Assembly: GCF_024436055.1 (NCBI RefSeq)
Contig: NZ_JANFNH010000049.1
Span: forward strand, 1-56,315
From: Streptantibioticus rubrisoli
Lineage (GTDB): Bacteria; Actinomycetota; Actinomycetes; Streptomycetales; Streptomycetaceae
Direction: 5' to 3'
Length of the DNA: 56,315 nt
The stretch's first letter is position 1, and each line of letters opens with the position of its first letter. The position numbers were made by a program, and so were the translations under genes. This document shows, one piece after another, positions 2,482 to 31,139 of the stretch. The notes under the pieces were generated by a model. It saw only the letters and a list, made by a program, of their open reading frames with translations, was not told where the DNA came from and searched no databases.

Positions 2482-2856
2482 TTACGCGGGTGTTGATCCG
2501 GGTCCGTCGATGCCGATGATGGTTCCGAAGGGGTCCGTCAACTGGCAGATTTTTCGGCCCGGTTCGGCTTCGATGGGGCCGCGGTGGTGGGTGCACCCGG
2601 CGTCCAACAGACGTTGGCGGACCGCGTCGACGTCGTCAACGGCCCAGTACACGACGGGGCTACCCCCGCGAGGGTTGCGTGCGTCGTCGGCCGGGTGGAA
2701 GCCGAGTTCGACCCCGTCGACGTCCAGCCAGGCGTACACCCGGCCGTTCTCCACTTCCAGGTGGATCTCTTCCGCCTCCAAGACATCCGCCCACCAGCGA
2801 GCGGACTTCTCGGGATCGTCGGCGAAGACCATGACGGTGCGGATGCCCTGGAACAC
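2482..2856 (-). CDS. VOC-family (glyoxalase/bleomycin-resistance fold) protein
   Basis: The 124-aa protein has the paired beta-alpha-beta-beta-beta layout of VOC proteins: an N-terminal TVMVFADDPEKSARWWADVL half with EVENGRVYAWLDVDGVELGFHP, and a second half with PVVYWAVDDVDAVRQRLLDAG and ending DPFGTIIGI. Such proteins are metal-dependent lyases, isomerases or small-molecule binding (resistance) proteins. It starts with GTG behind GGAG and lies only 15 bases after the kinase gene stop, so it is probably the last gene of the peptide-MBL-kinase operon. It could modify, bind or protect against the cassette's product; this is an inference from position. Confidence 0.85.
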   Translation of the reverse strand: MFQGIRTVMVFADDPEKSARWWADVLEAEEIHLEVENGRVYAWLDVDGVELGFHPADDARNPRGGSPVVYWAVDDVDAVRQRLLDAGCTHHRGPIEAEPGRKICQLTDPFGTIIGIDGPGSTPA

Positions 2857-2871
2857 GTACGTACTTCTCCT

Positions 2872-3744
2872 TCATGTGGTGGCGCCGTGAAGGGAGTGCA
2901 GGCCGGTGGCCTGTGCGAACGCTTCCAGCGCGCGCACGAGGCTTGCGTCGGTCCACGTGGCGCCGAGCTGGTTGCAGTGCTGACGATAGACCTGGCGGAT
3001 CCAGCCCGGGGGCATGTCCGGGTGATCCCTCGCCAGGTAGGCGAGGGTGATCAAGTCGGGTAGCCCGGTGAGGTCGGGCCGTAGTGTCTCGGCGTCGATG
3101 AGGACCAGGTGTCCGTTGTCCCTGCGGCAGTGATCGGGTTTCAGGTCGAGGTGGCCCAGCGGGACGTGCCCGGTGCCGTGCGCGTCGGCGGTCAGCTGGA
3201 GCAGCAGCCGCCAGGCCGGCGGGTCGCGGATCCACGCTGGTGTGGAGGCTTCAAGGAGTTGGTCGAGTCGCCATTGGCTCATGGCGTCGGCGGTGTGGGC
3301 TGGCCAGCGGGTGGGGGCGGTGTGGACGGCCGCCACTGTGGCGACCAGGTCCTCCCACGCTTTCGGCCCGTCCAGTGGGGCGGGCTGGTCGAGGTAGTCG
3401 ACAACCAGCGTGAGCGCGGTGTCGCTGCAACCGTGTAGGGCTGGCAGCGCTGCTTCGTGCTGCAGCAGCTGGTAGGCGAGGACCTCACCGAGGTACGCGG
3501 CTTCGGCCGCGTGCCGCTTGAGCAGTTGCTGGGGCGGGTCGCCGAGGGTGAACGTCGCGGTGCGGTAGCGGGCGGTCAGGCAGCGGACCGGGCCGGGAGC
3601 GGCCGGGTGGTGGCGGGGCAGCAGGGCGCGGGCCTGGGCCTCGGCGTGGGCGATGCTGGTGGTCAGCGGAGTGTCCAGCCAGCCGTCAGGCCGCAGACGG
3701 GCAGCGCCGTCCAACGGCCCGACGGGAGCGGTGCGGTGGCTCAC
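2872..3744 (-). CDS. Aminoglycoside-phosphotransferase-like kinase
   Basis: The 290-aa protein carries HLDLKPDH (residues 198-205), the catalytic-loop motif of the APH/choline-kinase family, and LIDAE (215-219), the metal-binding DFG-like motif. LLKRH around residue 76 may provide the ATP-binding lysine. The usual Asn of the catalytic loop is His205 here, which is unusual. The GTG start at 3744 overlaps the stop of the MBL-fold gene (GTGA), implying translational coupling; a longer frame upstream would lie wholly inside that gene. APH-like kinases modify small molecules, and in class V lanthipeptide clusters an APH-like protein acts on a precursor peptide. The nearby 46-aa peptide gene makes a peptide substrate possible. 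It could also be a plain resistance or sugar/choline kinase. Confidence 0.8.
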   Translation of the reverse strand: MSHRTAPVGPLDGAARLRPDGWLDTPLTTSIAHAEAQARALLPRHHPAAPGPVRCLTARYRTATFTLGDPPQQLLKRHAAEAAYLGEVLAYQLLQHEAALPALHGCSDTALTLVVDYLDQPAPLDGPKAWEDLVATVAAVHTAPTRWPAHTADAMSQWRLDQLLEASTPAWIRDPPAWRLLLQLTADAHGTGHVPLGHLDLKPDHCRRDNGHLVLIDAETLRPDLTGLPDLITLAYLARDHPDMPPGWIRQVYRQHCNQLGATWTDASLVRALEAFAQATGLHSLHGATT

Positions 3745-5228
3745 GATGCTGCCGGGGTGATGCCGAGGCGGGCCAGGCTGTAGGCGTAGCAGCGGGCCGC
3801 CAGGTCCGGCCGCTGGTGCTCGCCGTAGACCGCGAACAGCGCGAAGACCGGTGAATCCAGCGGTTCGCCGATGTGCCATCCCTGGTAGGAGCCGCCGATC
3901 ACGTCCCAGATCTGGGCGCGGCCGTCGAACAGGGCCACGAAGTCCTGGAAGTAGACCTCGATCCCGAACGGGTAGACGGCCATGGTCTCTTCACGGCTGA
4001 CGGTCGGTACCGGCTCCCAGCGCGGTCCGGTGATGTCCCACGCGTAGCTGTCGACGCCGCCGGGCTGGCCGGGCGGATCGAGCAGCCGGAGCACCAGGCG
4101 GTGAGCGCCGAGCGGACCAGCTAGGTAGTCGTGGATGCTCCCGGCCAGCGTGCCGGTGCGGGTGGCGATCAACTCACGGGCCAGGCGCGGCAGTTCCCGG
4201 GCCACGGTCTCGCGGGCGGTGTCCCACTCGTCTTCCGGCAACGGTGAGGTGATCGGCGTCGGGGTGACCTGGCGCGGCTGGTCGAGGAAGGCCGCCAGCG
4301 CGGCGCAAGCGCGCTTTTCTTCAGCGGTGTCGATGGTCACCCACGGGGCCCGGCTGGAGGTGATCGCCGTCCGGTCGCCGGGCAGGGTGAGCTGGTCGCC
4401 GGGGCGTGGGCCGTGGACGCGGAACAGGTGCTGGAGCGTGTTGGCGGCCTGGGCGAGCGCGGCATGGTCGGCGTAGAGGAACGGGCCGTGTGGGCTGCGC
4501 GGCGCGGTGAACCCGTTGCCGCACAGCGCCACGTCGGCAACACCGTCCAACGGGCGTAGGTAGTCGATCAGTAGACCGTTCAGCACTTGGACGCCGGTCT
4601 TGCGATGGCGCGGGCCGTCCAGGCCCGGCAGCAGGTTGGTGTCCGCGCCGAGCGCACCGTAGGGGACGCTTTGGCTGTTGTTGGACACCACCGCGAGCCG
4701 CGGCGGTACTACGGCTCCGTCCGTCAGCTGCTCGACGTACAGGTCGGAGACGTCGGCGTCCACGCCGACGAACACGTCTGCGTCGCTGGTGCCCGCCAGC
4801 CGTACCAGCGGCTGTACGACCCGTTTCTCCCAGAACAGAGTGCGGGCGCCGGCCGGGTAGAGGGTGATCTCGATGTCGCCAACCCGGATCGGCTGGGTGT
4901 GGTCGACACGGTGCACGCCGAAGCCCAGTAAGGCGATGGCGTCGGTCACGGCGGCTGGAGTGGTCATCCCCGTGTAGACGGGCGTCGAGCGGTCGAGCAG
5001 GTGCAGTGAGGGCAGGTGGAAGTGGTCAAGGTGTTCATGGGTGAGCACGATGGCGTCCGGCGCGGGCATTGCCGCTACGTCCACCTGGCGGGGCGGCCAG
5101 ATCTCGAATCGCAGATCTCCCGCGCCGAAGGCGGTGTCGAGGATGGGATCCAGCAGCACGACGGTGTGCCCATCGCTGATGTGCCACGTTTGGTGTCCCA
5201 GGAACGTCAGGTGCAGGTCAGCGGACAT
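3741..5228 (-). CDS. Metallo-beta-lactamase-fold hydrolase with a long C-terminal extension
   Basis: The 495-aa protein has the metal-binding HEHLDH motif at residues 64-69 (HxHxDH), preceded by an N-terminal GHQTWHISDG segment and followed by the core of an MBL fold up to about residue 270. The last 200 or so residues form an extra domain rich in Arg, Trp and aromatic residues (for example AYPFG-like and GGSYQGWHIGEP segments) that I do not recognise. The start at 5228 has GGAGAGG directly before the ATG. It is the second gene of a minus-strand operon, after the 46-aa peptide gene and an intervening hairpin, and its stop overlaps the kinase start. MBL enzymes use one or two metal ions for hydrolysis or redox chemistry; the substrate here is unknown. 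Confidence 0.85.
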   Translation of the reverse strand: MSADLHLTFLGHQTWHISDGHTVVLLDPILDTAFGAGDLRFEIWPPRQVDVAAMPAPDAIVLTHEHLDHFHLPSLHLLDRSTPVYTGMTTPAAVTDAIALLGFGVHRVDHTQPIRVGDIEITLYPAGARTLFWEKRVVQPLVRLAGTSDADVFVGVDADVSDLYVEQLTDGAVVPPRLAVVSNNSQSVPYGALGADTNLLPGLDGPRHRKTGVQVLNGLLIDYLRPLDGVADVALCGNGFTAPRSPHGPFLYADHAALAQAANTLQHLFRVHGPRPGDQLTLPGDRTAITSSRAPWVTIDTAEEKRACAALAAFLDQPRQVTPTPITSPLPEDEWDTARETVARELPRLARELIATRTGTLAGSIHDYLAGPLGAHRLVLRLLDPPGQPGGVDSYAWDITGPRWEPVPTVSREETMAVYPFGIEVYFQDFVALFDGRAQIWDVIGGSYQGWHIGEPLDSPVFALFAVYGEHQRPDLAARCYAYSLARLGITPAAS

Positions 5229-5263
5229 GGCCTCTCCGAATGGGGCGTGAGTGGATGTCAGGA

Positions 5264-5295
5264 GCGGGGAGGGGCTTGCGAGCGCCCCTCCCCGC
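5264..5295 (-). terminator. Intercistronic hairpin between peptide gene and MBL gene
   Basis: Arms 5264-5275 and 5284-5295 are perfect 12-bp complements around an 8-base loop. The hairpin lies 7 bases after the peptide stop codon and 36 bases before the MBL start. It would let most transcripts end after the peptide gene, or stabilise the peptide mRNA, giving more peptide than enzyme. It does not prevent read-through to the downstream genes. Confidence 0.75.
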
Positions 5296-5302
5296 GTTGC
5301 GC

Positions 5303-5443
5303 CTACCGGTGGTAGTACGTCGGCGCGTGGCTGGTCGCGCCGGTCGCCGCGAACGCGGCCACGCGACGTTGCAGCGTCCGGACAGCCGCCGCGGACACCA
5401 CCGCCTTCGTGGCCGTGATCTCCCGCTTACTGGACTTCGTCAT
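5303..5443 (-). CDS. 46-aa peptide, candidate RiPP precursor
   Basis: The gene has the strongest ribosome binding site of the region (GAGGAGGTGA, about 5 bases before ATG) and encodes 46 residues. Residues 1-33 are a Lys/Arg-rich, alanine-rich amphipathic helix (starts MTKSSKREITATKAVV, later RTLQRRVAAF), a reasonable leader; residues 34-46 are short and different in character, ending TSHAPTYYHR, with Thr, Ser, His and two Tyr. There is no Cys. It is followed by a hairpin, an MBL-fold enzyme and an APH-like kinase on the same strand. That order (short peptide, attenuator, modifying enzymes) is common in RiPP loci. It could instead be a small regulatory or membrane-active peptide. I do not recognise a known RiPP class. 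Confidence 0.65.
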   Translation of the reverse strand: MTKSSKREITATKAVVSAAAVRTLQRRVAAFAATGATSHAPTYYHR

Positions 5444-5563
5444 GCTGCTCACCTCCTCTCGGGGTTGGCTGGCAGGGGTGCGGCGCCACGCCTCGGGGGA
5501 TGGGCGAAGGGCGCCGCGGCCCGGCCGGTCCGTGCCCCTTGCTATGCGGACCGGCCGGGAGCT

Positions 5564-6013
5564 TCACGCACCGCCGACGACGGAGCGGATGACCGCGTGG
5601 AGCAGTACGGCGTGAGCCAGGCGCCCGTCAGGGTGGGGCGGGCTGAGCCAGTGCGGCCCCGGACCAGTGGTCCGTGCGGCGTGCACGACTGTGACCCACC
5701 CGCCAGTGCTGCGGCAGACCACGCCGGGGAAGTCCCAGTGGGTCGTGGCGCCGGGCCGCACCAACCAGTAGTGCCACCCGGCGTAGGGATCGAGGATCAC
5801 CGGCCCGGCCTCGCCATGCGTCGCATCGCGCATGCGTTCATAGACCGTGGGGCCGATCGTCGGGTCGAGCCGCACCGCGTCCCAATCCCGGCCCGCCCGC
5901 CGCAAGCTGGCCTTGCCCGGCAGAGCGCTCACCCAACCGCCGGACGGTACCGAGTGCAGCGGTGAGGCGGACTCCACAGCATCGCGGGACTGGCGCGGTA
6001 CGGACGCGGTCAT
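5564..6013 (-). CDS. Conserved 149-aa protein of unknown function
   Basis: Starts at ATG 6013 behind GGAG. The protein has a GRDWDAVRLDP segment near residue 41, a GPVILDPYAGWHYWLVRPGA segment near 70-89 and a tail with GPGPHWLSPP. I recall similar small proteins (bifunctional-primase/polymerase-N-like in weak annotation) beside XRE-type regulators in Streptomyces, but I cannot name a function. It is the first gene of the minus-strand group, 120 bases before the peptide gene, and is divergent from the regulator at 6258. The shared intergenic region carries the CCGGACTTT direct repeats described separately. Confidence 0.7.
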   Translation of the reverse strand: MTASVPRQSRDAVESASPLHSVPSGGWVSALPGKASLRRAGRDWDAVRLDPTIGPTVYERMRDATHGEAGPVILDPYAGWHYWLVRPGATTHWDFPGVVCRSTGGWVTVVHAARTTGPGPHWLSPPHPDGRLAHAVLLHAVIRSVVGGA

Positions 6014-6176
6014 TCGACGAACTCCGGGTGGTGAGGTACCGCCGGCTCACTCCGCGCCGACGGCCATGGGCGGGTAGCCCGACCCATTGGGGGCGCTCGC
6101 TCCTGGGCCGAGCTTCGTTGTGTCCAGACAACCGCCGCGCCCGCACCGCGCGGCGGACATGTCCCCGGACGTATCG

Positions 6177-6229
6177 CCGGACTTTTCCGCGTCCGACCGG
6201 ACTTTCGGAACACTGGGCACCGCTACCGT
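6177..6229 (+). promoter_or_regulatory. Direct repeat CCGGACTTT and -10 box before the regulator gene
   Basis: CCGGACTTT occurs at 6177-6185 and 6197-6205, exactly 20 bases (two helical turns) apart, on the same side of a TACCGT -10-like box at 6224-6229. This looks like an operator upstream of a promoter for the gene at 6258, in the divergent region shared with the gene at 6013. Confidence 0.5.
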
Positions 6230-6257
6230 CGGTTCAGCAGCTGCACCGGGGGTTCAG

Positions 6258-7532
6258 GTGACCGACGACGTGACACCGTTTCAACGGGCATGTGTCGCCC
6301 GCGGTTGGGACCAGCCCGCCGCATTCCTGCAGGCGTTCGATGCCACGGCCCGGCTGCTCGGCGAGCCGGTCACCGTCACCGAGCGCCAGCAACGGCGATG
6401 GAGACAGCCGGACCCGCCCCAGCCTCGGGCTCGTGCCTGGGCTGTGCTGCAGGCGATGTTCGGAACGGACCCCTCCGCCTTGGGGTTTCGACCCCGGACG
6501 ACCGGTGAGACGATCACGCCGACGCGGAAGGAGGCGCGGGTGGAACGGCGGGCATTTGTGGCCGACGCGGTGAGCTTGGCCGCTTGCGCGGCGCTCCCGC
6601 GAGGAGGCCATGAGGTCGGCTCCGCCCACGTCCTGGAGCTGCGCGAGGGACTGCGGTCTCTGTATGCCCTCGACGACGCGTACGGCGGTGCCGATGTCCT
6701 TTCGCTGGCCGTGCGCCATCTACACCGCGTCCGTCGGGTACTGAACACCGCGGCCGTGGCCGAGCCGATCGCCCGCCAGCTGCAGCTGCTCGTCGGCGAG
6801 ACCGCGGAACAAGTGGCGTGGCTCGCCTACGATGCCGACGACCAGGACGCCGCCCGCCGCTACTGGGGCGAGGCGCTGACCACCGCCACGGTGATGGGCG
6901 ACACCGGACTGGAGGTCCTGGTCCTGGCAGCGTTGAGCATGCAGGCCATCCACGAGGACCGCCCCCGCGACGGCTACGACCTCGCCCGCACCGCCCGCAG
7001 CAAGGCCGAAGGACTCGGCTCCCCCACCCTGCTCTCGCTCATCACCACACGGGAAGCACGTGCACTGGCCCGGATGCGCGACGCCACCGCAGCCAGCCGC
7101 CAACTCGCCACCGCCATGCGCATGCTGGAGCGCACCGACCGCGGCCGACCCGCACCACCGTGGGCCGCGTTCCACGGCCCGGCCGAACTCGACTTCGCCC
7201 AAGGGCTGCTGTACGCCGACACCGGCCGGCCCCGCGCCGCCGTCCCCTTCCTGCGCGCCGCCGTGACGCGGCAGGCCGCCGCATACGGCCGCAACCGCGC
7301 GCTGTACCGGCTCACCCTCGCTCGCGCCCTGGTGAACGCCGGAGAAGCCGACGAAGCCGCCGGCGAGGCGACCGCCGCGCTCGACGACCTCGCCGAGGTC
7401 GACTCCGGTCGCGTCATCCGCCGCCTCGCCCAGGTCCGCGGCCAGCTGCAGCGCACCGACGCCCGCAGCGCCCGCGAGGCGGTCGAGGCCATCACCCCGT
7501 ACCTGACCACGACATCCGGAGGCCACCGATGA
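6258..7532 (+). CDS. Transcription-regulator-like protein with helical (TPR-like) C-terminal region
   Basis: The chosen GTG at 6258 has GGGGG 5 bases upstream and lies 28 bases after a TACCGT box. Starts farther upstream (ATG 6159) would put the promoter inside the gene. The 424-aa protein begins VTPFQRACVARGWDQPAAF, the entry to a helix-turn-helix-type N-terminal domain found in many Streptomyces regulators, continues with a linker (RKEARVERRAFVADAV), and then has about 280 residues of Ala/Leu/Arg-rich helical hairpins with repeating ARxLARMRDA-like units, typical of TPR ligand or peptide sensing domains. It is likely the cassette-specific regulator of the divergent peptide operon. Its stop overlaps the GNAT start (ATGA), so the two are co-translated. 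Confidence 0.75.
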   Translation: MTDDVTPFQRACVARGWDQPAAFLQAFDATARLLGEPVTVTERQQRRWRQPDPPQPRARAWAVLQAMFGTDPSALGFRPRTTGETITPTRKEARVERRAFVADAVSLAACAALPRGGHEVGSAHVLELREGLRSLYALDDAYGGADVLSLAVRHLHRVRRVLNTAAVAEPIARQLQLLVGETAEQVAWLAYDADDQDAARRYWGEALTTATVMGDTGLEVLVLAALSMQAIHEDRPRDGYDLARTARSKAEGLGSPTLLSLITTREARALARMRDATAASRQLATAMRMLERTDRGRPAPPWAAFHGPAELDFAQGLLYADTGRPRAAVPFLRAAVTRQAAAYGRNRALYRLTLARALVNAGEADEAAGEATAALDDLAEVDSGRVIRRLAQVRGQLQRTDARSAREAVEAITPYLTTTSGGHR

Positions 7533-8098
7533 CCGCACGCCCCGCCCTGCAGGTCCTCGACGGCCCCGCCGCCCTCGACCAGCTCGACGCGTTCCTGCCT
7601 GCCTACGTCGAGGTGTACGTCGAGCCCCCGTACAGCGAAGGCCCTAAGGACGTGAAGGAGTTCACCGAGCGGTTCGCCCGCCAGGCCGCGACCCGCCCGC
7701 ACTTCCGCCTGGTCCTCGCACGCGACGACGAGGGCCAGGTCATCGGCTTCACCTACGGCTACTGCCTGCCCGCCGACACCCGTTGGTGGTCTGGCCTGCA
7801 GCAGCCACCGGCCGACCCCGGTTTCACCCGCGAGACCGGCGAGCGCACCTTCGCGGTCATCGAGCTGGCCGTCCGCCGGCCGTGGCGCCGTTCCGGCGTC
7901 GCCACCGCTCTGCACACCGCGCTGCTGGCCGGCATGCCCGCCGAGCGGGTCACCCTCACCGTGCGCCCCGAGCCGGAAGCAGCCCCAGCACGGCAGGCGT
8001 ACAACCGCTGGGGATACCGCTCCCTGGGTCCCAGCCGCCCGTGGGACGACGCCCCGCTGTACACGGCGATGATCCGCACCTTCGACGGTCAACCGTGA
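7529..8098 (+). CDS. GNAT-family N-acetyltransferase
   Basis: The 189-aa protein shows the GNAT core: a strand pair with FRLVLARDDEGQVIGFTYG (about residues 64-82), the strand IELAVRRPWRRSGVATALHTALLAG (about 111-135) that contains the acetyl-CoA pyrophosphate loop R-x-x-G-V/G-A, and the C-terminal YNRWGYRSLGPS motif. It would transfer an acetyl group from acetyl-CoA to an amine. It overlaps the regulator gene by 4 bases. The substrate may be the cassette's product, a drug or the regulator itself; none of these can be shown from sequence. Confidence 0.88.
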   Translation: MTARPALQVLDGPAALDQLDAFLPAYVEVYVEPPYSEGPKDVKEFTERFARQAATRPHFRLVLARDDEGQVIGFTYGYCLPADTRWWSGLQQPPADPGFTRETGERTFAVIELAVRRPWRRSGVATALHTALLAGMPAERVTLTVRPEPEAAPARQAYNRWGYRSLGPSRPWDDAPLYTAMIRTFDGQP

Positions 8099-8199: not shown

Positions 8200-8901
8200 C
8201 TACGACAGCGGCGTGGTTTTGCGTGGTGCGGGCAGCCGCGGCAGCAACTCCCACAGCGGGCGGGACCCCGTCGCCCATGTGCCCAGCAGCCGCCGGTCCA
8301 CCAGGTGGAGTTTTTGGGACTTCGCCAGCGGGGCGCACGGCTGGGTGAAGCGGCCGTTGGTCACCAGGACCACCACGTCGGCGCCGTGCAACTGCCGAGC
8401 GGTGCCGTTGAGTACGTGGAGGTCTGGGGTTCCCACCGGTGATCCAGCGTCCCCGTTGCGGCGGTGCTTGCACTGGATCACCCAGCGTCGACCGAGCGGA
8501 TCGGTGGCTTTGACGTCCGCGCCGTTGTCCCCGGCCCCGCCGACCTGGACCGCGTCCGCACAGCCGTCCCGCTGCATCAGGTCGCGTATCGCGTGCTCGA
8601 ACTCGCGGTGATGGAGTGCGTCGAGCTGCGCCAGCCCGTAGCGCAGGCCGTTGATGCGCACCCGCTCCCACTGCGCCCGCTGCTGCACCCGGTACAGCCA
8701 GACCCCGCCAGCACCGGCGGCGATGACCGCCAGGACGACGAGGATCCACCAGTTCGCCAGCAGCCACTCGATCACGGCGAGCGCGATACCGAGCGCCACC
8801 AGGCCCACGACCCACTCGCCGCCACCACCACGGCGCCGGGTGCGCCGTCGGGCCGGAGCCCGCCGGGCGGGACGGCGCCGGGCCGGTGGCCGGCGGCTCA
8901 C
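8200..8901 (-). CDS. Membrane-anchored Mrr-like restriction endonuclease
   Basis: The 233-aa protein has an Arg-rich N-terminus, two adjacent hydrophobic segments (about residues 31-50 and 51-69) and a C-terminal Mrr-type nuclease domain. The catalytic pattern is complete: ALHHREFEHAIRDLMQRDG helix, then GADV with Asp129 and VIQCKHR with Gln143 and Lys145 (D...QxK). Mrr-type enzymes cut modified DNA, and membrane-tethered versions are common in actinomycetes. The GTG start overlaps the stop of the gene at 8898-9119 (GTGA). A close architectural relative with the catalytic residues lost is at 22282-23013. It may defend the plasmid host or the plasmid. Confidence 0.82.
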   Translation of the reverse strand: MSRRPPARRRPARRAPARRRTRRRGGGGEWVVGLVALGIALAVIEWLLANWWILVVLAVIAAGAGGVWLYRVQQRAQWERVRINGLRYGLAQLDALHHREFEHAIRDLMQRDGCADAVQVGGAGDNGADVKATDPLGRRWVIQCKHRRNGDAGSPVGTPDLHVLNGTARQLHGADVVVLVTNGRFTQPCAPLAKSQKLHLVDRRLLGTWATGSRPLWELLPRLPAPRKTTPLS

Positions 8902-26276: not shown

Positions 26277-29200
26277 GTGCTTTCGATCTCTACAGGTAGC
26301 GATCCTGGCTACCTGACCAAGGAAGTTGGTCAGGGCCGGGAGCACTACTACCTGCGGTCGATCGACGAGGCAGGCGAGCCGCCCGGCTACTGGACCGGCG
26401 ACGGCGCGGCCGAGCTGGGGCTGTCGGGTGAGGTCAGCAACGACGTGATGACCGACCTGTACACGGACTTCATCGACCCGCGGAAGCGCGACGAGATGTA
26501 CGCCAAGCTGGCCGAGATCACTGCTGACCCGGAGTCGGAGGAGTACAAGCAGGCCGAGGCGAAGATCCGCAAGGAAGCCCGGCTGGGCACCGCCCCGAAG
26601 ACCTACGAGAAGGCGTTTGAGAAGCGGTTCGCTGCTGCGGTCGAGAAGGCCCAGGAGCGGGCCGCTGGCGACCTGACCCCGGAGCAGATCAAGAGCATCG
26701 AGCTGAGCGTGCGCAAGGAAGCCCCGAGCGCGACGCTGTACTACGACCTCACGTTCAGCGCACCGAAGTCGTGGTCGGTGTACCACGCCAGCTTGCAGGT
26801 GAAGGCGGCGCAGGCTCGCGAGGCGGGCGATGTGGAGGCGGCGGAGAAGTTCGCCAAGCAGGCCGAGCAGGTGTGGGATTGCTGGAAGACCGGCGTGCAG
26901 GCCGGGATCGAGCACATGCAGGAGGAGGCGGGCTACTCCCGCGCCGGGCACCACGGCGCGAAGGTCGGCGGGCGTACCTCCGGCCGGTTTGTCGAGGCTC
27001 CCGAGTTCACCGCCGCAGCATTCGCCCAGCACACGAGCCGCAACGACGACCCGCAGCTGCACGTCCACGTCGCGGTGCTCAACAAGGTCAAGACCGTGGA
27101 CATCGACCCGGTGACCGGTCAGGAACGCGTCGTGTGGCGGGCGCTGGACGGGCAGGGACTGTTCCGGCATAAGCAGGCCGCCGGCCACCTCGCGGAGCGC
27201 GTGGCCGAGCAGGAGCTGGAGCGGACGCTGGGTGTACGGGTGCAGATGCGCCCGGACGGCAAGGCCCGCGAGATCGTCGGTATCAGCCCCGAGTTGCGCG
27301 ACGAGTTCTCCAGCCGTCGGACGGCCATCAAGGAGACGGTCGCGGAGCTGGCGAAGGCGTACGAGGAGCGCCACGGCGTGGCACCGACCCCGTACGTGTT
27401 GGCCCGTATGTCGGAGGACGTGACCCTCGACCAGCGCCAGGCCAAGAAGCACGATGCTCTCTCCCGCGAGAGGCTGCTGGACCGGTGGGAGGCATCGAGC
27501 AAGAGCCGACTGCGCGAGTCGCTGGCGGACGTGCCCGAGCAGGTCGCCTTGGAGTCCGCGCTGCACGAGCGGTACCGGCCAGCCGGGGAGTTCGACCCGG
27601 CCCGCATCCAGCGGCGGGCCATCGCTGCCGTCCAGGAGCAGAAGGCGACCTGGACCCGGCCCGACCTGATCGTGGAACTGAACCGGCAGCTGCCCGACAC
27701 GCTGGGCGGGCTGGACCGGCACCAGGTCCGCGACCTGCTCAACACCCTTGCCGACGAAGCCCTGAACCCGACAACTGACAACGGCGTGGTGCGCACCACC
27801 GCGCCGCACATCGTGGAGATTCCCGCCGAGCTGCAGCGCAAGGACGGCAGCTTCATCTACGAACCGGCACAGAACACCACCAACCGTTACGCCACTGAGG
27901 ACCACCTGCGCGTGGAGGAGCGGCTGCGGGAGTTCGCCGGGCTGTCCGGTGCACCGGCTGTTCCCCGGCAGTTGGTCGAGGACGTCATCGAGCGCCGCGG
28001 ACTCACCGGCAAGCAGGCCGAGTTCGTGCGCCAGGCCGCGACCTCCGGCCGCCAGGTCGACCTGCTCATCGGCCCCGCTGGTGCGGGCAAGAGCTACACC
28101 CTGGCCGCGCTGTGTGAGGTGTGGGAGCAGCACAACAACGGCCAGGTGCTGGGCCTGGCCAGCGGCCAACGCGCCGCAGACGTGCTGGCCGAGGAAGGGA
28201 TCTCGAACGTTGCCAACATCAGCAAGCTGCTGAAGGCCAACGCGGCGATGGCAGCCGGCAGGGAGGTCGACGACGCCGAGCTGTACCGGATCAGGCCCGG
28301 TCAGCTGGTCATTGTCGACGAAGCCGGCATGACCAACACCCCGGACATGAAGCGGGTTGCGGACCTGGTCGAGGCCAGCGGCGCCAAGATGATCATGAGT
28401 GGTGACCACGGCCAGCTCTCGGCCGTCGGCGCGGGCGGGATGTTCGCCCAACTCGCCGAGGATCTCCCCGGCGTGCACACCCTCGAAGAAGTCCGCCGGT
28501 TCCGGGACACCGACGCGTGGGGCAACAAGACCGTGCGGCAGTGGGAGGCCGACGCCTCCCTGCAGCTGCGCCAGGGCGACTCCGAAGCGCTGGCTGCCTA
28601 CCAGGCGCACGGCCGTCTGCGCGGCGGCTCTGCCGAGGCCATGACCGAGCGCGCGTACCAGGGATGGATCGCCGACCACCTTGCGGGCCGCAACCCGCTG
28701 CTGATCGCGAGCACCAACGAGCAGGCCGCCGATCTGTCGATGCGGGCCCGCGCCGACCTGGTCCGCGCCGGGCTGGTCGAGGAGGACGGCGTCGTGCTGC
28801 GCACCGGGGACCGCTACCAGGTCGAGACCAGGGCCGGTCGCGGCGACCTCATCCAGCTGCGGAAGAACGACCGCAACATCACCGGCGAGAACGACAGGTT
28901 CGCGGTCAACCGGCTCACGGCCAAGGTGACCGGGATCGGCGACGACGGCTCCCTGATGGTGCAGCTGGAGGACGGCGGCCGGATGTACCTGCCCGCCGCC
29001 TACGTGAAGACGAACGTGGAGCTGGCCTACTGCAGCACGGTGCATGGCGCGCAGGGCCGCACGGTTGGCGTGTGCCACAGCCTGGTCGACGAGCAGACCA
29101 CCCGCGAGTCGCTCTACGTGGCGCTCACCCGCGGCGAGGGCGGGAACTACGCCTACGTGATCACGCACGGCAAGCCTGGCGACGGGATCAAGCCGGAGGA

Positions 29201-31139
29201 GGCGCCGCACCACCTCGCCTCCCTCGACCAGGCGCTGCAGCGCACCGAGCTGGAGCAGACCGCCACCCAGTCCGTCCGTGACGAGCTGGAGCGCCGCGAG
29301 CACCTGGCGGTCATGGAGCCGGTGTGGTCAGGAGTGAAGGACCAGCAGGCCGAGGCCCGATTCGGCAGCACCCTGCTGGACGCGCTCGGCCCGGAGGAGT
29401 ACGAGCGGCTCAGCAGCGAGGAGGCGTACGCCAGCTTGATGCGGCTGGCCCGGCACGTGGAGGAGCAGGGCCACGACGCCGAGGACCTGCTGCGGCGCAC
29501 CGCCACCTCCCGCGAGCTGGACTCCGCCGACAGCCACAGCAGCGTTCTGTACTGGCGGTTGGAACGCGCCTACAACCTCGCCGAACGGGACATCGTGCTC
29601 GCCGAGGAATCCGAGCAGCGCGCCGCCGTTGCCGAGCAGACCGAGCGCGTCGAGACCGTGCTCACCGCCGCGTACACCGCGCCGCTGCAGCCGGACCAGC
29701 CGGAGGCCGCACAGCACGCGATGGCCATGCAACTGGTCGATCTGGGCCAGGCGATGACCACGGAGGACCAGGACCAGGAAGTCGCCGAAGCTGTGGCCGA
29801 GGCGCACACCGCCCCGCCGGTCCACCCGCACCAGGAGGAGGCGCTGCAGCAGGCGATGGCGATGCAGTACCTGCCAGTGGCGCACGCCGGGCAGGACGTC
29901 GAGGTACGCCAGCGGCAGGCCGACGAGCGCGAGGCGCGGATGGAGGCGCTGGACTCGTACACCGCCCGCACCCCGGAGATCGACGGCGACCTGGGCCGGT
30001 TTATGGGCGAGTGGGCCCACGAGATGGACCAGCGTGTCGAGCGGCTGGGACAGCGGGTGGCCGAGCAGCAGCCGGAATGGGCGATGGATCGGCTGGGTCC
30101 GGTGCCCGAGGACCCGACCCAGCGCGCCGAGTGGGAAAGGTGCGCCGGCCGCATCGAGCGGTACCGGGAGGCGCACGGTTACGACAATGAGCATGACGCC
30201 ATCGGGCAGGCCCCGCCGCAGGGTGCCGTCGAGGCCCGCGCCGACTGGGAACGAGCGCGGCGGGCGCTGGGCGTGCCCGAGCAACAGGCCGACATCACCC
30301 GCGCGTCCGACGAGAGTCTGCGGCAGTCCATCGAGCGGTACGAGCGCGAGGAGGAGTGGGCTCCGCAGTACGTGGCCGACGATCTGGAGAAGGCGTCGCT
30401 GGCCCACCGCGACTACGGCGACCAGGCCGTGCAGCTGGAGCTGCGCGCCAAGGAGATGGCCGAACAGGAGGCCGCCGAGCACGAGGAACGGGTGACCGAC
30501 GCTGTTTACAACGCGCAGACCGCGCACGGCTACACCTATGAACAAGAGCACCTCAACCAGGTGATGGCGATGCAGCAGGCCCACACGCTGCAGGCCGAGA
30601 TCGACCCCAGCGAGCGGCAGAAGGAGATCGAGGGCCGCGCCGAGACCTCGCGGGACATCGCGGAGACGATGCGGGAGCGGGCCGAGCAGCTGCACGAGAT
30701 CCACGAGACGCGCGAGCAGTGGTACGCCGAGACCCAGCAGGCCCGCGAGGAATCCGAGTACGCGCGGATCGAGCTGGAGCGCCGGACCCCCGAGCCGCAG
30801 ATCGAGGAGCCGGACGCGCCGGACTCGACTGCCACCACCCCGGCCGCGCAGGACCCGTACGAGTTGGAGCAGGCCATGGAGCAGGCCCGCCGGGCTCAGG
30901 AGATCCTCGCCGAGCGTGCCCGGGAACGCGAGCAGGCAGCCCAGCGGGAGCCGGAGCATGCCGAGGACGCCGACCGCGAGCGCCGTGACACCGCATACGA
31001 GGCGGAGTACGCGCGCATCGGCCACGACCTCGCCGCCGCCGAGCACGACGTCGAGCCCGCGGCCAGCAGCCCGGCACCGCCTGCTCCTGAGCCGGAGCCT
31101 GTCCCCGAGCCTGCGCCGGAGCCTGAGATCGAGATGTGA
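26277..31139 (+). CDS. traA: MobF relaxase-helicase (TraA/TrwC type)
   Basis: GTG 26277 is chosen because the product then begins MLSISTGSDPGYL, like MobF relaxases; the upstream TTG 26268 would add three residues. The 1620-aa protein has N-terminal candidate nicking tyrosines (Tyr12, Tyr24, Tyr25), the three-histidine metal site (His252, His262, His264 in QLHVHV), a RecD/TraI-type helicase with Walker A GPAGAGKS near residues 599-606, Walker B IVDEAGM near 679, and VHGAQGRTV/ALTRGEG helicase motifs near 921-950. A C-terminal 600 residues are acidic coiled coil, with three repeats ending in (A/V)MAMQ near 1145, 1189 and 1427. It would nick, cover and unwind plasmid DNA for transfer. A terminator follows at 31141. 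Confidence 0.93.
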   Translation: MLSISTGSDPGYLTKEVGQGREHYYLRSIDEAGEPPGYWTGDGAAELGLSGEVSNDVMTDLYTDFIDPRKRDEMYAKLAEITADPESEEYKQAEAKIRKEARLGTAPKTYEKAFEKRFAAAVEKAQERAAGDLTPEQIKSIELSVRKEAPSATLYYDLTFSAPKSWSVYHASLQVKAAQAREAGDVEAAEKFAKQAEQVWDCWKTGVQAGIEHMQEEAGYSRAGHHGAKVGGRTSGRFVEAPEFTAAAFAQHTSRNDDPQLHVHVAVLNKVKTVDIDPVTGQERVVWRALDGQGLFRHKQAAGHLAERVAEQELERTLGVRVQMRPDGKAREIVGISPELRDEFSSRRTAIKETVAELAKAYEERHGVAPTPYVLARMSEDVTLDQRQAKKHDALSRERLLDRWEASSKSRLRESLADVPEQVALESALHERYRPAGEFDPARIQRRAIAAVQEQKATWTRPDLIVELNRQLPDTLGGLDRHQVRDLLNTLADEALNPTTDNGVVRTTAPHIVEIPAELQRKDGSFIYEPAQNTTNRYATEDHLRVEERLREFAGLSGAPAVPRQLVEDVIERRGLTGKQAEFVRQAATSGRQVDLLIGPAGAGKSYTLAALCEVWEQHNNGQVLGLASGQRAADVLAEEGISNVANISKLLKANAAMAAGREVDDAELYRIRPGQLVIVDEAGMTNTPDMKRVADLVEASGAKMIMSGDHGQLSAVGAGGMFAQLAEDLPGVHTLEEVRRFRDTDAWGNKTVRQWEADASLQLRQGDSEALAAYQAHGRLRGGSAEAMTERAYQGWIADHLAGRNPLLIASTNEQAADLSMRARADLVRAGLVEEDGVVLRTGDRYQVETRAGRGDLIQLRKNDRNITGENDRFAVNRLTAKVTGIGDDGSLMVQLEDGGRMYLPAAYVKTNVELAYCSTVHGAQGRTVGVCHSLVDEQTTRESLYVALTRGEGGNYAYVITHGKPGDGIKPEEAPHHLASLDQALQRTELEQTATQSVRDELERREHLAVMEPVWSGVKDQQAEARFGSTLLDALGPEEYERLSSEEAYASLMRLARHVEEQGHDAEDLLRRTATSRELDSADSHSSVLYWRLERAYNLAERDIVLAEESEQRAAVAEQTERVETVLTAAYTAPLQPDQPEAAQHAMAMQLVDLGQAMTTEDQDQEVAEAVAEAHTAPPVHPHQEEALQQAMAMQYLPVAHAGQDVEVRQRQADEREARMEALDSYTARTPEIDGDLGRFMGEWAHEMDQRVERLGQRVAEQQPEWAMDRLGPVPEDPTQRAEWERCAGRIERYREAHGYDNEHDAIGQAPPQGAVEARADWERARRALGVPEQQADITRASDESLRQSIERYEREEEWAPQYVADDLEKASLAHRDYGDQAVQLELRAKEMAEQEAAEHEERVTDAVYNAQTAHGYTYEQEHLNQVMAMQQAHTLQAEIDPSERQKEIEGRAETSRDIAETMRERAEQLHEIHETREQWYAETQQAREESEYARIELERRTPEPQIEEPDAPDSTATTPAAQDPYELEQAMEQARRAQEILAERAREREQAAQREPEHAEDADRERRDTAYEAEYARIGHDLAAAEHDVEPAASSPAPPAPEPEPVPEPAPEPEIEM

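Follow-up and report, generated by a model that had tools for sequence, protein, structure and literature searches.

A candidate peptide-modification cassette with a metallo-β-lactamase-fold enzyme and a kinase in Streptantibioticus rubrisoli and sporadic relatives in other phyla

Why does a gene for a peptide of only 46 residues precede the genes of an enzyme with the metallo-β-lactamase (MBL) fold and of a kinase in Streptantibioticus rubrisoli? The genes lie in a DNA stretch of 56,315 nucleotides (contig NZ_JANFNH010000049.1 of assembly GCF_024436055.1), which we refer to as the window. A first-pass annotation, made from the letters of this DNA, had read the cassette as a ribosomally synthesised and post-translationally modified peptide (RiPP) system of an undescribed class, carried as plasmid cargo. 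Our comparison of the cassette with its relatives makes it likely that the cassette is of the RiPP type, that its family has no described class and that the enzymes act near a tyrosine in the tail of the peptide.

Co-occurrence of the peptide and enzyme genes

A collection of genomes from 84,980 species was searched with the MBL alignment alone, and the regions upstream of the matches were then inspected for open reading frames encoding peptides. MBL homology gave 35 loci, 24 of which (L029–L052) match over nearly the full length; ten short matches (L054–L063, reaching at most query residue 124) and a locus with a frameshifted, partial MBL gene (L053) are outside these 24. A fixed filter was applied, requiring an open reading frame of 35–70 codons, at most 450 bases upstream of the MBL gene and ending in Y-x-[RHY]. 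Such a frame is present in 22 of the 24 loci. As background, 220 further called genes from these loci (other genes of the cassette among them, the anchor MBL genes excluded) were put through the same filter; a single one passed, and it is the true precursor gene of the Odyssella locus (L048). When this gene and that of the Caenimonas locus (L044, found by inspecting the gene list) are added, the peptide is present in 24/24 loci. The loci are not all independent, as L029/L030/L046, L034/L035 and L037–L039 are near copies. The co-occurrence of peptide and enzymes, which the first-pass annotation had named as a check, holds across phyla.

The peptides were compared in an alignment of 23 sequences, the window peptide and those of 22 loci; the alignment omits L035, a near copy of L034, and L044, whose motif is internal, and both count among the 24. 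Only Met1 and the Tyr at position −3 are invariant. Conservation is highest in the C-terminal Y-x-[RHY], and the helix-like N-terminal region, which would be the leader, is conserved as well. A conserved leader with a variable tail had been expected at first pass; the tail turned out to be the most conserved part, which suggests a conserved small product. Over the last 31 residues of nine close peptides, the rate of non-synonymous substitution is below that of synonymous substitution (dN < dS) in 30 of 36 pairs and the order is reversed in 6; it is below in 8/8 pairs that include the window peptide. On these comparisons, the peptide gene is real and tied to the enzyme genes.

Two further samples were analysed. 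At the level of the class, the MBL gene is present in 6 of 394 genomes (S. rubrisoli itself included) and the peptide in all six, which come partly from lineages already sampled. Weak peptide-profile matches in 13 of the 394 genomes (E 7.6e-4 to 9.5e-3) were dropped, as they never reached the last residues of the profile and lay in longer open frames. In a plasmid collection, tblastn with the peptide gave no match; the MBL query did find plasmid copies, in five records. Four were examined and the peptide is present in 4/4; one has the same sequence as the L039 peptide, and the others are near known ones. The fifth record (H5), in which 63% of the MBL enzyme is covered in two pieces, is outside the four. 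The precursors are annotated as hypothetical proteins in 4/4 plasmid records, because they are very small and poorly matched by existing models.

The 24 loci fall into two subtypes. Type I (17 loci) has the tail Y-H-[RHY], usually TYHR, AYHR or TYHH and internal in L044, with one MBL enzyme and a DIPK/APH-like kinase. Type II (seven loci) has the tail Y-[VTS]-R, two MBL enzymes and, by BLAST grouping, a P-loop kinase; the member of this kinase group in L048 matched no Pfam family. The pairing is strict (Y-H in 17/17 single-MBL loci, Y-[VTS]-R in 7/7 double-MBL loci), and peptide tail and enzyme set change together. The order of the genes is conserved too. In the MBL tree, the seven rows of MBL-A and the five of MBL-B come together in one supported group each, both spanning phyla; no single group is resolved for the type I rows. 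The occurrence of two unrelated kinase types at the same position suggests that phosphotransfer may be a required step.

The strongest single case comes from Caenimonas, where the layout is that of an exported ribosomal peptide. The precursor, which ends in ETAENVGGGLTYHYQQGPN, has a double-glycine leader followed by the core LTYHYQQGPN, with TYHY internal. The gene order is the double-glycine leader peptide, HlyD, a transporter of the ATP-binding cassette (ABC) type with a C39 peptidase domain (Pfam E 1e-32), the MBL enzyme and the kinase. The Odyssella precursor (...TTIIAYVR) is located upstream of a transporter-like (ABC-like) gene, not of the MBL gene. Related proteins of 920–950 residues with a weak match to ABC ATPases are encoded in the Chlamydiales (L043, 9419–12274) and Odyssella (L048, 4234–6999) cassettes; they are possibly an unusual exporter.

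The enzymes and the proposed reaction

The structure model of the MBL enzyme (pLDDT 92, the model's own confidence measure; 28 sequences) has as its nearest solved folds 2wyl, 2wym and 3bv6 (deposited as metallo-β-lactamases), NAPE-PLD, SaxA and the diiron oxygenases CmlA and FrsH. By sequence, the PDB neighbours are NAPE-PLD, 3rpc, SaxA, CmlA and FrsH. The known substrates of CmlA and FrsH are amino acids bound to carrier proteins. The MBL domain of these two oxygenases is similar to that of the cassette enzyme in sequence (E 3e-4 to 3e-3) and fold (Foldseek E 5e-11 to 4e-9), but it is C-terminal in the oxygenases and N-terminal in the cassette enzyme, with a whole-length TM-score of 0.34–0.38. 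Compared with the CmlA-type diiron ligand set, HxHxDH and a conserved Asp are present, whereas the third His is gone in most rows. Asp157 and Glu134 are invariant (n = 28), and Glu134 might replace the missing third His. The site does not appear to be that of an ordinary MBL hydrolase, which is no proof of an oxygenase.

In the kinase model (pLDDT 93) the fold is of the APH/homoserine-kinase type, and the corramycin phosphotransferase ranks second among the neighbours (TM ~0.5). K76, E87, D200, H205, D217 and E219 are invariant in 17/17 aligned kinases; His205 is located where the fold usually has Asn. The window kinase matched no Pfam family, and PF01636 (APH) is reached by only 1 of the 17 kinases, in a weak match (E 0.084). 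One of the four plasmid homologues is annotated as 'DIPK family protein' and the other three as hypothetical.

The peptide and MBL genes are separated by a predicted hairpin. In the window, a 74-base stretch folds with −35.5 kcal/mol (z −3.2 against dinucleotide shuffles), and of the 22 loci folded, 20 have an intergenic stretch with z at or below −1.9, the exceptions being L049 (+0.8) and L051 (−1.3). The sequence of the stems differs between lineages. The ribosome binding site of the window MBL gene is outside the stem. Such a hairpin after the peptide gene may favour expression of the precursor above that of the enzymes.

We propose the following mechanism. The 46-residue peptide would be the precursor, with its helical N-terminal part as the leader and the C-terminal APT-Y-Y-H-R carrying the core. 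The MBL enzyme and the divergent kinase would work at the tail end, close to the invariant Tyr (−3) and the next residue. The MBL enzyme would perform a metal-dependent oxidation, for example a hydroxylation, and the kinase would then phosphorylate; of the possible chemistries near the tyrosine this seems the likeliest, but it is a guess to which we give clearly less than even odds. The VOC and GNAT proteins and, in relatives, the transporters of the major facilitator superfamily (MFS) may serve immunity, tailoring or export, and the NsdA-type regulator would control the operon.

Known systems and rival explanations

In class V lanthipeptides, lanthidins and thioamitides (pristinin, kintamdin), a small precursor is encoded with an APH-like kinase and a HopA1-like lyase. 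The likeness to our cassette is a small precursor gene that adjoins a phosphotransferase-type kinase gene in actinomycetes (PMC7794033, PMC9415263). The known systems differ in having the HopA1 lyase and Cys; the cassette instead has an MBL enzyme and a kinase below any Pfam cut-off. Membership of class V is ruled out, as HopA1 (PF17914) has no match in the genome at E 0.01 and there is no Cys in 23/23 aligned peptides, the window peptide among them. This agrees with the first-pass annotation, which had found no HopA1-like protein and a Cys-free peptide. In phosphorylated RiPPs with HprK-like kinases (paeninodin-like lasso peptides, LPP; PMC13381572), a kinase likewise serves as a RiPP enzyme; the window cassette has no recognised HprK, RRE, lasso cyclase or SpI peptidase and does have an MBL enzyme. 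Two other candidates were rejected. The XyeA triceptide reading fails on the NCBIfam match of window peptide residues 6–28, which reaches 19.2 bits against a cut-off of 33, and on the lack of a radical SAM protein among the seven window proteins scanned; only 1 of the 23 peptides matches XyeA at all, and AmcA is also matched weakly by 1 of 23 (E 0.036). The anti-phage defence reading was dropped, PADLOC giving no family for the seven proteins at E 0.001.

Pyrroloquinoline quinone (PQQ) and mycofactocin are redox cofactors derived from RiPPs, with short precursors that contain a nearly fixed core including Tyr, and one enzyme of the PQQ pathway, PqqB, has the MBL fold; we know of no other MBL-fold enzyme in RiPP biosynthesis, and none is among the matches listed from the open-licence literature. 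The cassette differs from both systems: the seven window proteins include neither a radical SAM nor a PqqD-like protein, and there is a kinase instead. Biarylitides have a YYH core and a P450; the window tail contains YYH, but no P450 gene is found among the window proteins scanned, and the relatives mostly have other tails (TYHR, AYHR or TYHH in type I, Y-[VTS]-R in type II). No description of such a cluster was found in the open-licence literature among the matches listed. A term search of PMC12710340 gave no mention of lactamase or kinase, and the single mention of metallo-β-lactamase counted in PMC7470986 was not found in the main text. RiPP systems are recognised by a small precursor conserved beside genes of modifying enzymes, the arrangement that the fixed filter selected in 22/24 loci. 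The family is real, coherent and RiPP-like and, as far as searched, undescribed.

Several observations weigh against this reading. The MBL, APH-like, VOC and GNAT folds all occur widely among resistance genes. Among the seven window proteins, Pfam and NCBIfam recognise no RRE/PqqD domain (which binds leaders in many RiPP systems but not in all), no radical SAM, YcaO, LanB/C or HopA1 domain and no leader peptidase; signs of leader removal in the family are the double-glycine leader and C39 peptidase of Caenimonas. The metal motif is non-canonical, with HxHxDH kept in 23/28 MBL rows, the first His being Asn in five MBL-B rows, and the region of the third His holds His in only 5/28. As the PDB neighbours of the MBL enzyme include hydrolases (NAPE-PLD, SaxA), oxidation is a guess. 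The plasmid peptides confirm the pattern only within lineages already sampled, which slightly weakens the support. The parts of the cassette can also separate. Of the seven genomes in which the peptide is matched over its full length, two (G131, G140) lack an intact MBL gene; of the nine MBL-positive genomes in the family sample, two (G076, G160) carry MBL genes only in broken or truncated form, with no peptide in the stretches fetched. In Streptomyces inhibens (L053; 6754–6882, 7001–7562) the copy is decayed, the MBL gene being frameshifted and the codon of the invariant tyrosine of the peptide being a stop. Peptides without the enzymes had been named at first pass as what would refute the proposal; they do occur, in the two genomes of seven, but G131 retains a 34-residue MBL fragment beside the peptide, and the separations look like decay.

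The conserved residues directly precede the stop codon, a hairpin is next in most loci and the downstream genes look like resistance genes. All this would suit a regulatory leader peptide, in which ribosomes stall near the last conserved codons and, together with the hairpin, control a resistance-type operon (MBL, kinase, VOC, GNAT). We consider this quite unlikely. The TYHY of Caenimonas is internal and followed by QQGPN, which argues against a regulatory leader peptide, and this double-glycine leader peptide is encoded with HlyD and the C39-ABC exporter. The Odyssella peptide precedes the ABC-like gene rather than the MBL gene, the ribosome binding site of the window MBL gene lies clear of the main stem, and the conservation extends to the helix-like N-terminal region. 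A third rival is an operon for self-protection or for a small molecule, with the MBL enzyme and the kinase inactivating a toxin from outside and no role for the bystander peptide. It would fit enzyme folds that are frequent in resistance and the near structural relation of the kinase to the corramycin phosphotransferase; the presence of the peptide in every one of the 24 loci, with a tail that varies with the enzyme set, makes it highly improbable.

A peptide pheromone, its tail modified or unmodified and read by the divergent TPR regulator, is also unlikely. In its favour, a TPR-type regulator of one cluster is divergent in 11/17 type I loci, a helix-turn-helix regulator of another cluster is found in 3 more, and in L021 and L022, which lack an intact MBL gene, the peptide is still intact and close to an XRE-type regulator. 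However, no such regulator is clustered in the seven type II loci over the range compared, and a plain pheromone needs no two enzymes. For the RiPP reading, the tie between precursor and enzymes that the first-pass annotation had proposed is supported by the co-occurrence, the conserved tail and the double-glycine leader and C39 peptidase of Caenimonas; the modification of the peptide itself is what we infer. We also put forward, at less than even confidence, a more specific version. The cassette may represent a new RiPP class in which an MBL metalloenzyme and a kinase turn the fixed C-terminal Tyr-Xaa-(Arg/His/Tyr) of a carrier peptide of ~45 residues into a single conserved small molecule that would serve, much like PQQ or mycofactocin, as a cofactor, signal or metal ligand. 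The class would have spread by horizontal transfer among Actinomycetota, Chlamydiota and Pseudomonadota.

The window cassette and the spread of the family

The features of the window cassette are listed in Table 1. The coordinates bear out the layout read at first pass, with peptide gene, hairpin, MBL, kinase and VOC genes on the minus strand, the overlap and short gap between the enzyme genes, the strong ribosome binding site of the peptide gene and the divergent genes of a helical-repeat regulator and a GNAT enzyme.

Table 1. Features of the cassette and its flanks in the window
Feature	Coordinates	Strand	Remarks
VOC protein (glyoxalase/bleomycin-resistance fold)	2482..2856	-	15 bases beyond kinase gene
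Divergent APH/DIPK-type kinase, 290 residues, HLDLKPDH	2872..3744	-	4-base overlap with MBL gene
MBL-fold enzyme, 495 residues, HEHLDH	3741..5228	-	N-terminal MBL domain; C-terminal part (~residues 330-490)
Perfect 12-bp hairpin between peptide and MBL genes	5264..5295	-	RNA folding
Putative precursor peptide, 46 residues	5303..5443	-	MTKSSKREITATKAVVSAAAVRTLQRRVAAFAATGATSHAPTYYHR; no Cys; tail ...APTYYHR
AGGAGG Shine-Dalgarno sequence of peptide gene	5452..5457	-	Read from sequence; strong: AGAGGAGGTGAGCAGC before ATG
Open reading frame of 149 residues, no family, upstream of peptide gene	5564..6013	-	Pfam/NCBIfam scan
NsdA-family TPR-like regulator, divergent	6159..7532	+	NCBIfam E 4e-79; start codon uncertain
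GNAT acetyltransferase	7529..8098	+	4-base overlap with regulator; optional accessory

The VOC protein probably serves immunity or tailoring; a VOC gene is present in 9/17 type I loci. An MFS exporter is encoded in 6/7 type II loci. The 149-residue open reading frame, which the first-pass annotation did not mention, has a 70% identical counterpart in Streptantibioticus ferralitis, to which its clear conservation is limited among the loci compared, and its place in the cassette is uncertain. DUF6415 proteins are found at a similar place in L020 and the plasmid L088. A gene for an Mrr-type restriction endonuclease (8200–8808) adjoins the window cassette. Near type II cassettes there is an Stf0-type sulfotransferase (L047, 10515–11345; L052, 13582–14202), a possible tailoring enzyme. 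An extra kinase adjoins the cassette in L041 (9318–10130) and has a relative in L042 (9390–10235); the L041 protein is similar to the kinase part of LanL, a class IV lanthionine synthetase (NCBIfam E 8e-14), but at 51 bits against a cut-off of 650.

The window also encodes a 1620-residue protein with TrwC relaxase and helicase domains (26277–31139), and it has a weak integrase match below Pfam's cut-off. From these two features the window is probably mobile DNA, and it is probably part of a conjugative element. Relatives of the cassette are located on linear plasmids of Streptomyces and Kitasatospora; together with the relaxase they lend support to the earlier suggestion of plasmid or mobile cargo. 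The family extends over Actinomycetota, Chlamydiota and two proteobacterial lineages, and its hosts are sporadic: an alphaproteobacterium, a betaproteobacterium, Chlamydiales, Frankia relatives and Streptomyces plasmids. When genomes related to three hosts were searched, 1 of 140 was positive for the Caenimonas host, 1 of 90 for the Chlamydiales host and 1 of 42 for the Odyssella host, each being the starting genome; with no further members, the cassette is sporadic in these groups.

The analysis adds to the first-pass annotation a conserved tail, two enzyme sets matched to two tails and a family that crosses phyla. As the tail is nearly fixed, the substrate residue is obvious and the chemistry is directly testable. 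The sporadic presence across phyla suggests a product useful enough to be exchanged between them. If the proposal is true, the known RiPP classes would gain one that relies on an MBL-fold enzyme together with a kinase.

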